Origin: Dictyoglomus thermophilum H-6-12
Lineage (GTDB): Bacteria > Dictyoglomota > Dictyoglomia > Dictyoglomales > Dictyoglomaceae
Length of the DNA stretch: 64,000 nucleotides
Direction of reading: 5' to 3'
NCBI RefSeq assembly: GCF_000020965.1
Contig: NC_011297.1
Span: 758,387-822,386 of the forward strand
The number at the start of each line of letters is the position of its first letter. Within the stretch, counting starts at the first letter, position 1. The position numbers were made by a program, and so were the translations under genes. Shown in pieces: positions 1,244-7,669 of this stretch. The notes under the pieces were generated by a model, which worked only from the letters and a program-made list of their open reading frames with translations, had not been told where the DNA came from and made no database searches.

Positions 1244-3928
1244 ATGAGTAGAAAATTATGCGATATATGTGGAGTAAACCCTGCAACCATTAGGGTTTAT
1301 ACCATAAAAAATGGCCAAAGACGGATTCTTGATATATGCGAAGAATGTTATGCAAAACAAAGGAGACAAGAAAGATCTTATTCTCCTTTAGAATCTCTCT
1401 TCTTTGGGGATCTTTTTAGAGACTTTTTTGGAGAAGATTTTGGTCTTCCCTTTGAAGGATCCTTAGGAAGAGAGAGAGAATCTATAGATTTGAATGATTA
1501 TTTGAGTAATGTATCAAAGGATCTTTTACAGCAAGCTGCCAAAAAAGCAATTGATTTTGGTAAGAAGCAGGTAGGTACTGAACATTTACTCTATGTTCTC
1601 TTGGATAATGACGTAGTGAATGAGATTTTAAAGCAGTTTAAGATTTCTCCACAAGAGATTAAGGCTTATATAGACAATAATGCTCCTAAGGGTGGATTTA
1701 AGCCTGAGGGAGAGGAGGTAGAAGTAGATATATCTCCAAGACTGAAAAGCGCTTTAGAGAGAGCTTTTATGGCTGCAAGGGATCTGGAGCATAATTATAT
1801 AGGACCAGAGCATCTTTTAATAGGGCTCGCTGAGGAAGAAGAAGGATTTGCTGCTAATGTTCTAAGAAAATATGGTTTGACTCCACAAGCTTTAAGACAA
1901 GCAACTATAAGGGTTGTAGGTAGAGGTAAAGAGGCTGGTAAAGGAGTTAGAAGGTCTAATACTCCAACTCTTGATAAGTTCTCTCGTGATTTAACCGAAT
2001 TGGCAAGACAAGGTAAGTTAGATCCTGTGATAGGAAGAGCAAAGGAAATTGAGACTGTAATTGAAGTTCTTGCAAGAAGAAAGAAGAACAACCCTGTGCT
2101 TATAGGAGAGCCAGGTGTAGGTAAGACAGCAATTGTAGAGGGGCTTGCTCAAAGAATTGTTAAAGGAGAAGTTCCAGAAGTTTTGAGAGATAAAAGATTA
2201 GTCGAATTAAACATAAATACTTTAGTTGCAGGAACAAAGTATAGAGGAGAGTTGGAAGAGAGAGTTAAGCAGATCTTGGATGAGATAATAGCCAACCAAG
2301 ATAGCCTTATAATATTTATCGATGAAATTCATACTATTGTGGGAGCAGGTGCCGCTGGAGAAGGAAGTTTAGATATTGCTAATGCCTTTAAACCTGCATT
2401 AGCAAGGGGAGAACTACACTTGATTGGTGCTACAACATTAAATGAATATCAAAAATATATTGAAAAGGATCCTGCCCTTGAGAGAAGATTTCAACCTATA
2501 TTTGTTTCTGAGCCTACAGTAGAGCAAACAATAATGATATTGAGAGGTTTGAGAGATAGGTTTGAGGCTCATCACAAGGTAAAAATTACTGATGAGGCGA
2601 TAATTGCTGCTGCTGAGCTTTCAGATAAGTATATCACTAACAGATACTTGCCTGATAAGGCTATAGATCTCATAGATCAGGCGGCTGCTAGGGTAAGAAT
2701 TATGATGACTTCAAGACCTGCCGAAATACAGGAACTTGAAGCTAAGATTCAGTCTTTGAAGAGGGAGCAAGAATATGCATCTTCGAGAAAACAGTATGAT
2801 AGAGCAAAGGAGCTTGAAGAACAGATCCAGAAATTAGAGAAGGAATTACAAGAAAAAACTGAGGCTTGGAAAAAAGAAATAGCATCTGATGTTCCAGAGG
2901 TAAGAGCTAAACATATAGCTGAAATAGTTTCTTCACTTACTGGTATTCCTGTAACAGAGCTTACTACCGATGAAAAAGAGAGATTATTAAAGTTAGAGGA
3001 AAAACTTCATGAAAGGGTGGTAGGACAGGATGAAGCTATAAAGGCAGTAAGTGATGCTATAAGGTTGGCAAGAGCAGGTCTTAGGGAAAAGAATAGACCT
3101 ATTGCTACTTTTCTGTTCCTTGGTCCTACTGGAGTAGGTAAGACAGAGCTTGCAAGGGCGCTTGCATGGGCAGTGTTTGGGGATGAAGATGCTATTATTC
3201 GTATTGACATGAGTGAATATATGGAGAGACATACTGTTTCAAGGTTGATTGGTGCACCACCAGGATATGTAGGATATGAAGAGGGAGGACAACTTACTGA
3301 GAAGGTACGTAGAAGACCATATAGTGTCATTCTCTTAGATGAAATAGAGAAAGCGCATCCCGATGTACATAATATATTGTTACAGGTATTTGACGCAGGA
3401 AGACTTACTGATGGAAAAGGAAGGGTTGTGGACTTTACAAATACCATAATTATAATGACAAGTAATATAGGATCTGACATTATTCAGGCCAATTTAACTG
3501 CTACAGGAAGAGATAAGTTAAGCTATGAGCAGCTTAAAGAAAAGCTTATGGATATACTTAAGAGATACTTTAGACCAGAATTTCTTAATAGAATTGATGA
3601 AATAATAGTATTCCATGCGTTAACTAAGGAGCAGGTCAGAGATATTGTCAAGTTACAACTTGAGAGAGTAAGGAGAACGGCTAGGGCTCAAAATATAGAG
3701 CTCGTGTTTGATGAGTCAGTGGTAGATTTCTTTGCTGAGATAGGATATAGCCCTGAATTTGGGGCAAGAGAGCTCAAGAGAAAGATTAGAAATGAACTTG
3801 AGACAAAGCTTGCTAAGGCTATGCTTGAAGGAGCAATTCAAGAAGGAGATAAGATTAGGGTAGTTTATAATAAAGAGAAAAATACAATAGAGTTTGAGAA
3901 GATAACTGAAGAAGCGAAGATAAACTAA
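1244..3928 (+). CDS. Zinc-finger Clp/Hsp100 ATPase (ClpC/ClpB hybrid)
   Basis: 894-residue double-AAA+ unfoldase. Residues 1-36 form a four-cysteine zinc finger (C6, C9, C32, C35) resembling McsA. A Clp_N repeat pair follows (about 85-225), then AAA1 with Walker A GEPGVGKT near 288 and a short coiled middle region with a UVR-like segment (about 480-545) as in ClpC. AAA2 has Walker A GPTGVGKT near 627. The stretch after sensor 1 (MTSNIGSDIIQANL) has no V/L/I-G-F tripeptide, which ClpA, ClpC and ClpX use to dock on ClpP; here and through the C terminus it reads like ClpB. By family it remodels or disaggregates proteins with ATP in the cytoplasm. It is monocistronic, between its own promoter and a strong terminator. 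Calling it plain ClpC would imply a protease partner that the sequence does not support. Confidence 0.93.
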   Translation: MSRKLCDICGVNPATIRVYTIKNGQRRILDICEECYAKQRRQERSYSPLESLFFGDLFRDFFGEDFGLPFEGSLGRERESIDLNDYLSNVSKDLLQQAAKKAIDFGKKQVGTEHLLYVLLDNDVVNEILKQFKISPQEIKAYIDNNAPKGGFKPEGEEVEVDISPRLKSALERAFMAARDLEHNYIGPEHLLIGLAEEEEGFAANVLRKYGLTPQALRQATIRVVGRGKEAGKGVRRSNTPTLDKFSRDLTELARQGKLDPVIGRAKEIETVIEVLARRKKNNPVLIGEPGVGKTAIVEGLAQRIVKGEVPEVLRDKRLVELNINTLVAGTKYRGELEERVKQILDEIIANQDSLIIFIDEIHTIVGAGAAGEGSLDIANAFKPALARGELHLIGATTLNEYQKYIEKDPALERRFQPIFVSEPTVEQTIMILRGLRDRFEAHHKVKITDEAIIAAAELSDKYITNRYLPDKAIDLIDQAAARVRIMMTSRPAEIQELEAKIQSLKREQEYASSRKQYDRAKELEEQIQKLEKELQEKTEAWKKEIASDVPEVRAKHIAEIVSSLTGIPVTELTTDEKERLLKLEEKLHERVVGQDEAIKAVSDAIRLARAGLREKNRPIATFLFLGPTGVGKTELARALAWAVFGDEDAIIRIDMSEYMERHTVSRLIGAPPGYVGYEEGGQLTEKVRRRPYSVILLDEIEKAHPDVHNILLQVFDAGRLTDGKGRVVDFTNTIIIMTSNIGSDIIQANLTATGRDKLSYEQLKEKLMDILKRYFRPEFLNRIDEIIVFHALTKEQVRDIVKLQLERVRRTARAQNIELVFDESVVDFFAEIGYSPEFGARELKRKIRNELETKLAKAMLEGAIQEGDKIRVVYNKEKNTIEFEKITEEAKIN

Positions 3929-4500: not shown

Positions 4501-5145
4501 GTGGCTGTTATCACAATTTCTCGCCAAGTAGGAAGTTTAGGAGATGAGTTGGCAGAGAAGATTGCTAAGGAGCTTGGTTATAGATATTTTGATAAGTTTC
4601 TTATGACAGAGATTGCGGTTTCTTCGGGACTTACAGAAGCAGAAGTTATAGATTTTAATGAAGATAATTACAAAGTGAGGAGTTTCTTTGAACAATTATT
4701 TGGTAGAAAAAGTCCTGTTGGTACCATTACTGTAAGGGATAGAGATGAAAAGGGTAAGGTATTTTTAACAACTAAGGTTTTTGATGAGGAGAGTTCTCTT
4801 ACTTTTGTCCAGGCAGTGATTAAAAAACTTGTCGATTGGGATAATGTGGTAATTTTAGGAAGGGGAGGACAGGTCCTTTTGAGAGGATTTCCTCATGTTT
4901 TACATATAAGAGTGATTGCTCCTCTTGAATTTAGAATTGAAAATATCATGAAACAAAAAGGTTTGACTAGAGAGGATGCTTTAAAATATATTTCTGAGAA
5001 AGACAAAGCAGCTCAAGAATACCTATACAGATTCTATAACGTGGATTGGAATGATCCTGAGTTATATCATATGGTCTTGAATATGGGTATGTTGAAGATG
5101 GATCAGGCAGTTAAAATTGTGAAGGATCTTGTGAGCTTAATATAA
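4501..5145 (+). CDS. Cytidylate kinase-like protein
   Basis: 214 residues beginning at a GTG (MAVITISRQ) preceded by a purine-rich GGGGGGAGGGG. The N terminus is the P-loop of the cytidylate kinase-like family: ISRQVGSLGDELAEKIAKELG, in which the classical GxxGxGK/S is altered as usual for this branch. YRYFDK follows, as in that family. A second conserved stretch is VVILGRGGQVLLRG near residue 117. It is separate from the canonical Cmk of nucleotide biosynthesis, and its substrate is unknown. The 3' end overlaps the end of the convergent ammonia-lyase-like gene by 9 bases. Confidence 0.75.
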   Translation: MAVITISRQVGSLGDELAEKIAKELGYRYFDKFLMTEIAVSSGLTEAEVIDFNEDNYKVRSFFEQLFGRKSPVGTITVRDRDEKGKVFLTTKVFDEESSLTFVQAVIKKLVDWDNVVILGRGGQVLLRGFPHVLHIRVIAPLEFRIENIMKQKGLTREDALKYISEKDKAAQEYLYRFYNVDWNDPELYHMVLNMGMLKMDQAVKIVKDLVSLI

Positions 5146-6282
5146 TTCGTTGATGTTTTCTTCGATAGTTTTCAAGAGATCATTTAGGAAAGGTGTTAGC
5201 TCTATATAGCTTTTTATGTTTTTTTCTAACATAAAAGATCTAAGTATTTTATCTAATGGTTTTTCTGTAGAGCAGGTGAGAGTATAGTTAGTTAGAATAA
5301 GAGCTAAAGCCTTTTTGTAATCTTTAATTTTTTTTCTAAAACTTAGAAGAGGTTCATCACTCTCTCTTAATGCGTTGTAGATTTCATAAATTTTGCTTTT
5401 GTTTTCCTCGGAGAATTTAATTCTTATAAACAAGTCTTTAAATATTTTATCTATTATTAGGAGTAAAGTTTTGAGACTTTCGAGTAAGTATTTTTTTTGA
5501 GTTAGTACTAAGGAATTCTCAATAAAATTGTTTTTTTCAGGTATAAAGATATATGGATAATGGGAAGAATTTAGCTGTATGTTTAAGATTTCATATAGAT
5601 CATCTAAGGTTTTATAAAGGAGAGAGAGCGCTGAATATAAGAGGGGATCTATGGTTTGGTCTTCCTTTTTAGGATTAGAGAATGAATTTATATTTTCAGC
5701 AAGTTTTATGAAGGGTAAATATGGAGTTAAAGCTAGATTATAGGGGTCAATATATGGATAATTAAAGTATAGTATCGCAGAGATTGTTAACAGTTTTTTT
5801 ATTAATTGAAGTTCTTCAAAATAAGAGCAGATAAAACCAGGAATATATGCAGAGGTTTTAAGTAGGATTTTTCTCTCAAGGAGAGTTATATTTTCTAAAT
5901 ACTTTAGAAAATGATAATTGGGAGTGGCTACTTTTAGATTCGTAGATAGGGAGATTTCTGGTATTTTTATATTCTCTCTAAGTAAATTTATTAATTGTTC
6001 TAAAACTTTATAACTTATCCCACAACTACTATTTGCTGATGTGTAAATGGTAGCAAGCAAAATTCCTTTTACTTCTTTATCGCTTAAAAAAGCAGTACTA
6101 TCAATTTCTTCATAGTCTTCAAGGTTTATTTTTTTATCCAGAAACTCATAATAATCTTTCAGTAGATTCGATGATAAAAAGACTTTATTTTTTAGATTTT
6201 CAGATATTTCGATTTCTTGTTCAGAGTTTAAAATTAGGATAAAATCTTCTACTGATAGGGAGTTCTCATTTAATATATACAT
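5137..6282 (-). CDS. Ammonia-lyase-like protein lacking the MIO triad
   Basis: 381 residues against about 500 for histidine or phenylalanine ammonia-lyase. Similarity is seen by eye at three places. The N terminus (MYILNENSLSVEDFILIL) matches the lyase opening. NSSCGISYKVLEQLINLL near residue 85 matches the YSGVR..ALLN segment. IDPLLYSALSLLYKTLDD followed by EILNIQLNSS near 215-240 matches QDxYSLRC..ELNSxxDNP. At the place of the catalytic Ala-Ser-Gly that cyclises into the MIO cofactor, this protein has Val-Ala-Thr within LKVATPNYHFL. The substrate tyrosine and asparagine sites also look altered. I infer a non-catalytic or repurposed lyase fold. It starts 3 bases after phoU and should be co-transcribed with it. 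Confidence 0.55.
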   Translation of the reverse strand: MYILNENSLSVEDFILILNSEQEIEISENLKNKVFLSSNLLKDYYEFLDKKINLEDYEEIDSTAFLSDKEVKGILLATIYTSANSSCGISYKVLEQLINLLRENIKIPEISLSTNLKVATPNYHFLKYLENITLLERKILLKTSAYIPGFICSYFEELQLIKKLLTISAILYFNYPYIDPYNLALTPYLPFIKLAENINSFSNPKKEDQTIDPLLYSALSLLYKTLDDLYEILNIQLNSSHYPYIFIPEKNNFIENSLVLTQKKYLLESLKTLLLIIDKIFKDLFIRIKFSEENKSKIYEIYNALRESDEPLLSFRKKIKDYKKALALILTNYTLTCSTEKPLDKILRSFMLEKNIKSYIELTPFLNDLLKTIEENINELY

Positions 6283-6285
6283 GAT

Positions 6286-6942
6286 TTACTTGTGGAGTTC
6301 TTTTCTTTCACCTGTCTCTATGTAGTAGATAAGTTCTATTATATTAGTTGTGTGATCAGCGATTCTTTCTAAATATCTTGAGATCATGATAAGTTGAATT
6401 ATTTGTTGGGTTAGTATGGGGTTTTTATAAATTTCTTCAAGCAGTTCGTTGGATATCTCTTGATACTTGAGAAAGACAAAATTGTAATATGAGGAGATAT
6501 TTTCTAGTTGTTCTAAATTAGGTTCTGAGTAGGCCCTTATTACATCTTTTACCATTCTTTCTACTAAGGTAGCTAAGGAAATTATGTCTGAAAGGGGGAT
6601 ATCAAAAGAGTATTTCAAAAGACTCGATGCAAATTTAGCTATATCTACAGAGTAATCTCCTATTCTTTCTAAATCTTTGATTATTTTCATGGTAGAGGCT
6701 ACTATTCTTAGTTCTTTTGCTACGGGTTGATGAAGAGATAATATTTTAAGACATTGGTTTTCTATATCCCAGTTATACTCATCTACTAATTTGTCCGTCT
6801 CTATAACTTCTTGAGCTAAATCTAAGTCTCTGGTTTTTATAGAGTCGAGAGTTTTGTGAAGCATCTTTTCCACGATGCTTCCCATTCTAAGAAGTTTTTC
6901 TTTAAGGGATTCAATTTCCTTGATAATTATTGCCCTTTCCAA
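6286..6942 (-). CDS. phoU: PhoU-family phosphate regulator
   Basis: 218 residues with two PhoU helical-bundle repeats. Each carries the metal-binding E/DxxxD pattern: IKDLERIGDYSVDIAKF near residue 88 and SRYLERIADHTTNIIE near 190. By family it binds Fe or Mg clusters and restrains the PstSCAB transporter and the PhoR kinase. No pst or phoBR gene is nearby. The start is a TTG seven bases after GAGAGG. The ammonia-lyase-like gene follows directly in the same operon, an unusual partner. Confidence 0.9.
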   Translation of the reverse strand: MERAIIIKEIESLKEKLLRMGSIVEKMLHKTLDSIKTRDLDLAQEVIETDKLVDEYNWDIENQCLKILSLHQPVAKELRIVASTMKIIKDLERIGDYSVDIAKFASSLLKYSFDIPLSDIISLATLVERMVKDVIRAYSEPNLEQLENISSYYNFVFLKYQEISNELLEEIYKNPILTQQIIQLIMISRYLERIADHTTNIIELIYYIETGERKELHK

Positions 6943-7045
6943 ATTAAACCTCTCTAATATTTTTGTAGGATTTTGTTTCTTAGTGTAAGTATTATATAAC
7001 TACATGGATTCCTATTCAATTAATTTTTTTTTAAAGCTTATATGG

Positions 7046-7051
7046 TATAAT
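7046..7051 (+). promoter_or_regulatory. -10 box of a probable leaderless promoter
   Basis: A perfect TATAAT lies nine bases before the ATG at 7061. There is no purine-rich ribosome binding site in between, so the zinc-binding protein is probably read from a leaderless or nearly leaderless mRNA. Confidence 0.5.
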
Positions 7052-7060
7052 CTAACTGTT

Positions 7061-7669
7061 ATGAGTAAGTGTGTGGTATGCAATAAGAGAAAAGGGAAGA
7101 GAAAGTGTCCTGCTCTTTCGGGACTTATATGCGCTGAATGTTGTGGGACAAAGAGAATGAAAGAAATAAATTGTCCTTTAGACTGTGTTTATCTTAAAGA
7201 AGCTCAATTGTACTCTATTCTAAGAGTTGAAGAAAAACCTGCTGATTTTCAGCCTAAACAATGGGATTTATTTTGGTATTTTGAGAGTTTAATATACAAA
7301 TTCCTTTTAGAATTTACTACTTTTACTGATGAGGAGCTTCTGGATGTGATATCTCTAATGGAGAAGGAATATCAAACTAGGAAAAAGAATCTTTATTTGC
7401 CCTCTCTTCATCCCAAATCAACTCGAGCGATTAAACTAAAATCTATCTTAGAGGAAGAATTTTCTAAGCTTGAGAAACAAATAAATGATTTTGGTTTGCC
7501 TGTGTTTACTCTTGATGATTTTATTAAAGTATTATCTTTTGAGAAAGACAGAATAGAAAACTACATGAAAGAGAATAGAAATGTGGGAGGCAATCTGTTT
7601 TTACAGGTTTTAAAAGGTGAAGTAGAAGTCTTTATAAATCAGAAGAGAAGAGAGAGGGTACATGAGTAG
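7061..7669 (+). CDS. Cysteine-rich putative zinc-binding protein
   Basis: 202 residues from the ATG at 7061 (MSKCVVCNKRKGKRKCPAL). An in-frame ATG at 7004 would add 19 residues across the promoter and is rejected. The first 40 residues hold a cysteine array (C4, C7, C16, C23, C26, C27, C36, C40) of the type CxxC-x8-C-x6-CxxCC-x8-C-x3-C, typical of a conserved but uncharacterised bacterial zinc-binding domain. The remaining 160 residues are mostly helical and charged, without a recognised domain. The ahcY start overlaps its last 8 bases, so the two genes are translationally coupled. Confidence 0.7.
   Translation: MSKCVVCNKRKGKRKCPALSGLICAECCGTKRMKEINCPLDCVYLKEAQLYSILRVEEKPADFQPKQWDLFWYFESLIYKFLLEFTTFTDEELLDVISLMEKEYQTRKKNLYLPSLHPKSTRAIKLKSILEEEFSKLEKQINDFGLPVFTLDDFIKVLSFEKDRIENYMKENRNVGGNLFLQVLKGEVEVFINQKRRERVHE

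Follow-up and report, generated by a model that had tools for sequence, protein, structure and literature searches.

The gene directly behind phoU on the minus strand of the analysed window, a stretch of 64,000 nucleotides from the Dictyoglomus thermophilum H-6-12 genome (a single contig of 1,959,987 bases), very probably encodes a lineage-specific, non-catalytic descendant of an ammonia-lyase that has been kept by selection, a degree of confidence that applies to the non-catalytic, selected descendant and not to its link with PhoU. The 381-codon reading frame noticed in the first-pass annotation is real: it follows the phoU stop codon after 3 nt and overlaps, at its 3' end, a convergent cytidylate kinase-like gene by 9 nt. 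The protein had also been correctly described as about 120 residues short, with 381 amino acids against about 500–520 in intact lyases. A promoter scan of the region gave sites in numbers that did not exceed those of shuffled sequences. The features of the locus are:

5137..6282, minus strand: MIO-lyase-like probable pseudoenzyme gene, 381 aa, ATG start (open reading frame; profile comparison, predicted fold, orthologues).
6286..6942, minus strand: phoU, 218 aa, upstream gene in the same presumed operon (PF01895, E 3.8e-45; TIGR02135 above cut-off).
4501-5145: cytidylate kinase-like gene, convergent to the pseudoenzyme gene.
5968..6093, minus strand: residues 64-105, remnant of the lyase segment VRAxxxxRxNxLAxGYSGVR (partial PF00221 and NCBIfam matches, alignments).
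5932..5940, minus strand: codons 115-117, Asn-Leu-Lys, opposite the MIO-forming Ala-Ser-Gly of intact lyases (two alignments).
5686..5724, minus strand: residues 187-199, PYLPFIKLAENIN, remnant of the RPHPGQ segment (RPHPGQIxxAxxLR in lyases; alignments).
5512..5649, minus strand: residues 212-257, core helix and IQLNSSHYP, remnant of EINSxTDNP (alignments).

Searched alone, the 381-residue protein gave weak and partial matches to PF00221 in Pfam (12.5 bits, E 0.056, short of the curated cut-off of 27.3 bits) and to TIGR04475 in NCBIfam (E 0.0069), and its best PDB sequence match was EcoRI, which is spurious and as weak as the PF00221 match. The Pfam E value and the EcoRI match are what an unrelated all-alpha protein, such as a PhoU-partner domain with a chance likeness to lyases, might give; this explanation is contradicted by the profile comparison, the chain of orthologues and the fold searches, and we regard it as exceedingly improbable. 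The orthologue from the same genus (G001, 384 aa, 60% identical) matched PF00221 with 23.2 bits (E 3.4e-5), and those found at the same place in the sister genus reached 61.6 bits (G004, 380 aa, E 7.5e-17) and 192.7 and 203.1 bits (G005 and G006, 457-458 aa, E 1.3e-56 and 9e-60). A profile built only from the two short forms, the 381-residue protein and its 60% identical G001 orthologue, without any intermediate, aligned by hhalign with 12 intact lyases over 251 columns (probability 96.8%, E 2.9e-10); the same short forms aligned with the G004-G006 forms over the full length (E 3.7e-16), and these longer relatives with intact lyases at E 3.4e-49. Since the orthologues bridge the gap to PF00221, the homology is settled: the protein shares common descent and, by prediction, the same fold with the histidine/phenylalanine ammonia-lyases. 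The three stretches previously aligned by eye with these enzymes (residues 64-105, 187-199 and 212-257) thus hold above chance in the short-form profile comparison. The five Dictyoglomota family members group together in a tree (100/100), which gave no clear answer as to which intact lyase stands closest to them.

The predicted structures agree with this relationship. AlphaFold produced a model of moderate quality from the alignment of the family itself (pTM 0.70, pLDDT 62.9) and a better one when intact lyases were added (pTM 0.88, pLDDT 86.8), rows which could steer the predicted fold. For each model, the best 50 Foldseek matches in the PDB were all enzymes of the MIO-lyase fold, and the best match was the ergothionase 6s7j. 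The E values started at 1e-3 with the family-only model and at 5e-10 with the one that included intact lyases, for which the best HAL-like entries had TM scores, normalised to the query, of 0.73-0.76. The ammonia-lyase fold proposed from the letters alone is therefore given by hhalign and by AlphaFold with Foldseek, and neither of the outcomes named beforehand as refuting it, a lack of structural match to lyases or an all-alpha fold of another family, occurred.

The MIO-dependent ammonia-lyases and aminomutases are homotetramers whose active sites are shared by three subunits. In these lyases, the catalytic Tyr on the inner loop is essential (PMC9002059). We compared the catalytic positions with 20 proteins of the lyase family, in which each position is retained in 19-20 of 20 when MIO-competent triad variants are counted. 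A MIO triad variant (Ala-Ser-Gly or its Ser/Thr/Val/Cys forms) is present in 19 of the 20 comparison proteins and in none of the orthologues. The first-pass annotation had the triad replaced by Val-Ala-Thr; the absence of Ala-Ser-Gly stands and the replacing residues do not, as two alignments place N115-L116-K117 at the triad and V118-A119-T120 opposite Asp-Leu-Ala. In addition, the loop with the catalytic Tyr (YGxxTGxG) and the SHA His are deleted, the NGT Asn position is occupied by Lys142 and the QDxYxxR positions by Glu207, Thr210 and Pro213, and both the NFHG Phe and the QED Glu fall in gaps, the alignment being uncertain in the gapped regions around these motifs. The sole motif residue retained is Asn238 of EIN, which is kept family-wide. 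The MIO loop of the long forms is SLKRNLNPL or FSNKNLNPL, compared with SVGASGDLAPL in lyases, with the triad lost and two residues deleted. The relatives show scattered single matches to catalytic residues, such as Gln248 and Tyr251 in G006, and the residues common to all five orthologues include no set that matches the old active site. Judged by its residues, the protein would not belong among MIO-dependent lyases or aminomutases, as the triad, Tyr, Asn, QDxYxxR, Phe and Glu by which these are recognised are missing.

Histidine ammonia-lyase (HutH; PF00221, TIGR01225; e.g. P. putida 1b8f and T. acidophilum 7tqr) has the fold and the order of core segments in common with the pseudoenzyme, which is homologous to it over most of its length. 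The pseudoenzyme differs in having no MIO triad, catalytic Tyr loop or other active-site residue, in being about 120-125 residues shorter, and in lying behind phoU in Dictyoglomota genomes without urocanase. Ergothionase is an active enzyme that works by acid/base chemistry, and in 6s7j, from Treponema denticola, the loop reads SSIG-EGDI, without Ala-Ser-Gly. This precedent for activity after loss of MIO, together with the rank of 6s7j as top fold match, speaks for a MIO-independent enzyme with a new chemistry. We consider such an enzyme improbable: 6s7j and the ergothionase-like protein L055 share the fold of the pseudoenzyme and likewise have loops without Ala-Ser-Gly, but L055 is of full length and still has the Tyr loop and the SH(C)GG-type His, features that are all missing from the 381-residue protein, and the residues kept in the five orthologues do not match the old active site. 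The ergothionase pattern combines a MIO-less loop with retention of the remaining catalytic residues, and the pseudoenzyme shares only the first of these traits. Loss of MIO was already known in an active enzyme, and what differs here is the dismantling of the entire active site. The earlier remark that the fold has no known role of this kind holds as regards a PhoU partner, but in ergothionase 6s7j a MIO-less member of the fold was already known. A literature search turned up no account of a MIO-lyase pseudoenzyme, which does not prove that none exists, and a search for Dictyoglomus together with PhoU returned nothing relevant.

A survey of 386 genomes detected PF00221 in 155 of them. We searched for MIO-less proteins by reading about 20 full-length members among these positive genomes, examining the weakest-scoring ones, and all but L055 keep the triad. 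L055 (1414-3036 of its locus, plus strand; GSMGEADITILGH) has a signal-peptide-like start and adjoins a porin-like gene, and is possibly an exported ergothionase. Two divergent lyases (L062, 1432-2802, and L063, 1309-2805, both on the minus strand) keep ASG and lack the GEGEVxYKG segment; they are flanked by a galT-like gene on one side and a HAD phosphatase-like gene on the other. In two related genomes (L020, 1420-2844, and L056, 1411-2847, both minus strand) a HAL-family gene lies directly behind a gene like the beta subunit of sodium-pumping decarboxylases. A scan of named genomes recovered one member of the pseudoenzyme family and a pair of intact lyases, of which one is from Caldisericota (L052, 5971-7494, plus strand). 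The C-terminus of this Caldisericota lyase reads EVEKEIGELF, compared with VEEEIGELF in the Dictyoglomota pseudoenzymes, and the enzyme may stand near the ancestral form. A tblastn search for phoU beside the intact lyases fetched gave no match, with only about 1.5 kb of flanking sequence available for most of them.

The ratio dN/dS (Nei-Gojobori) of the pseudoenzyme gene was 0.19 between the 381-residue form and G001 and 0.31 between G005 and G006, and that of the adjacent phoU was 0.035 and 0.07 for the same two pairs, ratios that are rough because synonymous sites are near saturation. A neutral simulation run at the observed synonymous distance predicted about 29-36 in-frame stops, with a minimum of 13 in 500 runs, and none was seen. 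The 7 Dictyoglomota genomes yielded no intact lyase, and urocanase was not found in the 6 searched for it; there is therefore no sign of a histidine-degradation pathway. The absence of urocanase and the stepwise loss of segments between species would suit a decaying hutH pseudogene, but the dN/dS of 0.19-0.31 and frames that stay open across two genera argue for purifying selection and make decay very unlikely. This explanation and that of an unrelated all-alpha protein are thus both already contradicted by the evidence above. Because the loss extends beyond the triad to every catalytic position, in a gene under purifying selection, the proposal of a pseudoenzyme is strongly supported.

Homologues with a phoU neighbour were found: the pseudoenzyme gene lies behind phoU in all six Dictyoglomota genomes with sequence beyond phoU (G000, G001, G002, where the gene is cut by the contig end, G004, G005 and G006), a count outside which G003 falls, as its contig ends inside phoU. 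The five complete cases have a start codon that overlaps the phoU stop or is no more than about 10 nt away from it, and translational coupling is therefore likely. The convergent kinase-like gene and a divergent Cys-rich gene also keep their position at the locus in the related genomes. The latter (7004-7669, plus strand) encodes 221 aa with a Cys-rich N-terminus, is kept in the Dictyoglomota loci read and had no significant match in Pfam or NCBIfam. Position directly behind phoU is a trait that the pseudoenzyme has in common with PhoU/Pst accessory proteins; the pst locus here has its own phoU, a second copy adjoining pstC-pstA-pstB, so that the phoU of the pseudoenzyme is not the pst-linked paralogue. 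The genome also encodes a third PhoU-like domain, within a 549-aa frame at another place. The pst-linked phoU has no pseudoenzyme-like neighbour, and any role with PhoU would therefore be specific to the other paralogue. To our knowledge, no known PhoU partner has an ammonia-lyase fold.

A link between the pseudoenzyme and PhoU, suggested by gene order, is tentative, with a probability clearly short of even. A selected, non-catalytic bystander, whose function is unrelated to PhoU and which merely shares its transcript, departs from our preferred explanation only in the PhoU step and comes close to an even chance. The pseudoenzyme evolves much faster than phoU (60% vs 93% identity), which argues against a tight, obligate interface; orthologue lengths of 380-458 aa are likewise loose for an obligate partner. 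No interface with PhoU is known, and other neighbours also stay put, so that a conserved order across six related genomes need not have a functional meaning. What speaks against the bystander is that every species has the start codon coupled to the phoU stop. Mere sharing of an operon is at least as likely as PhoU binding or control of phosphate physiology.

Elsewhere in the window, a ClpC-type AAA+ ATPase (1244-3928, plus strand) carries an extra N-terminal segment with two CxxC motifs (MSRKLCDICGVNPATIRVYTIKNGQRRILDICEECY) before the Clp_N repeats, which recalls a McsA-like zinc finger fused to ClpC. This protein aligned from residue 1 with the disaggregase ClpG of NCBIfam, below the cut-off.

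We propose the following course for the non-catalytic descendant. A HAL-type ammonia-lyase would have been acquired by, or present in, the Dictyoglomota ancestor, and its gene would have come to sit directly behind a phoU. All segments forming the active site (the catalytic-Tyr loop, the MIO loop, NGT, QDxYxxR, NFHG and QED) would then have been lost and the helical core retained. The product is probably made together with the adjacent PhoU by translational coupling, and would do non-catalytic work, with the role of a helical scaffold or partner protein as the likeliest; it may have a ligand-sensing pocket, though no retained residue speaks for one. The pseudoenzyme might modulate, or be regulated with, the non-pst PhoU paralogue. 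That the lyase scaffold became a dedicated non-catalytic partner of this PhoU, regulating phosphate physiology in Dictyoglomota, is put forward as a conjecture that is less likely than not.

The family offers a clean conversion from enzyme to pseudoenzyme within the textbook MIO-lyase family, in which the whole site appears to have been stripped while the core remained under selection. Its intermediate stages are visible in related genomes, from the 458-aa form (E 9e-60) through the 380-aa form (8e-17) to the 381-aa form, which is below significance against PF00221. These data suggest that the scaffold of a former enzyme was taken over for a non-catalytic function, and they single out the pseudoenzyme as a candidate PhoU-linked component that can be tested.
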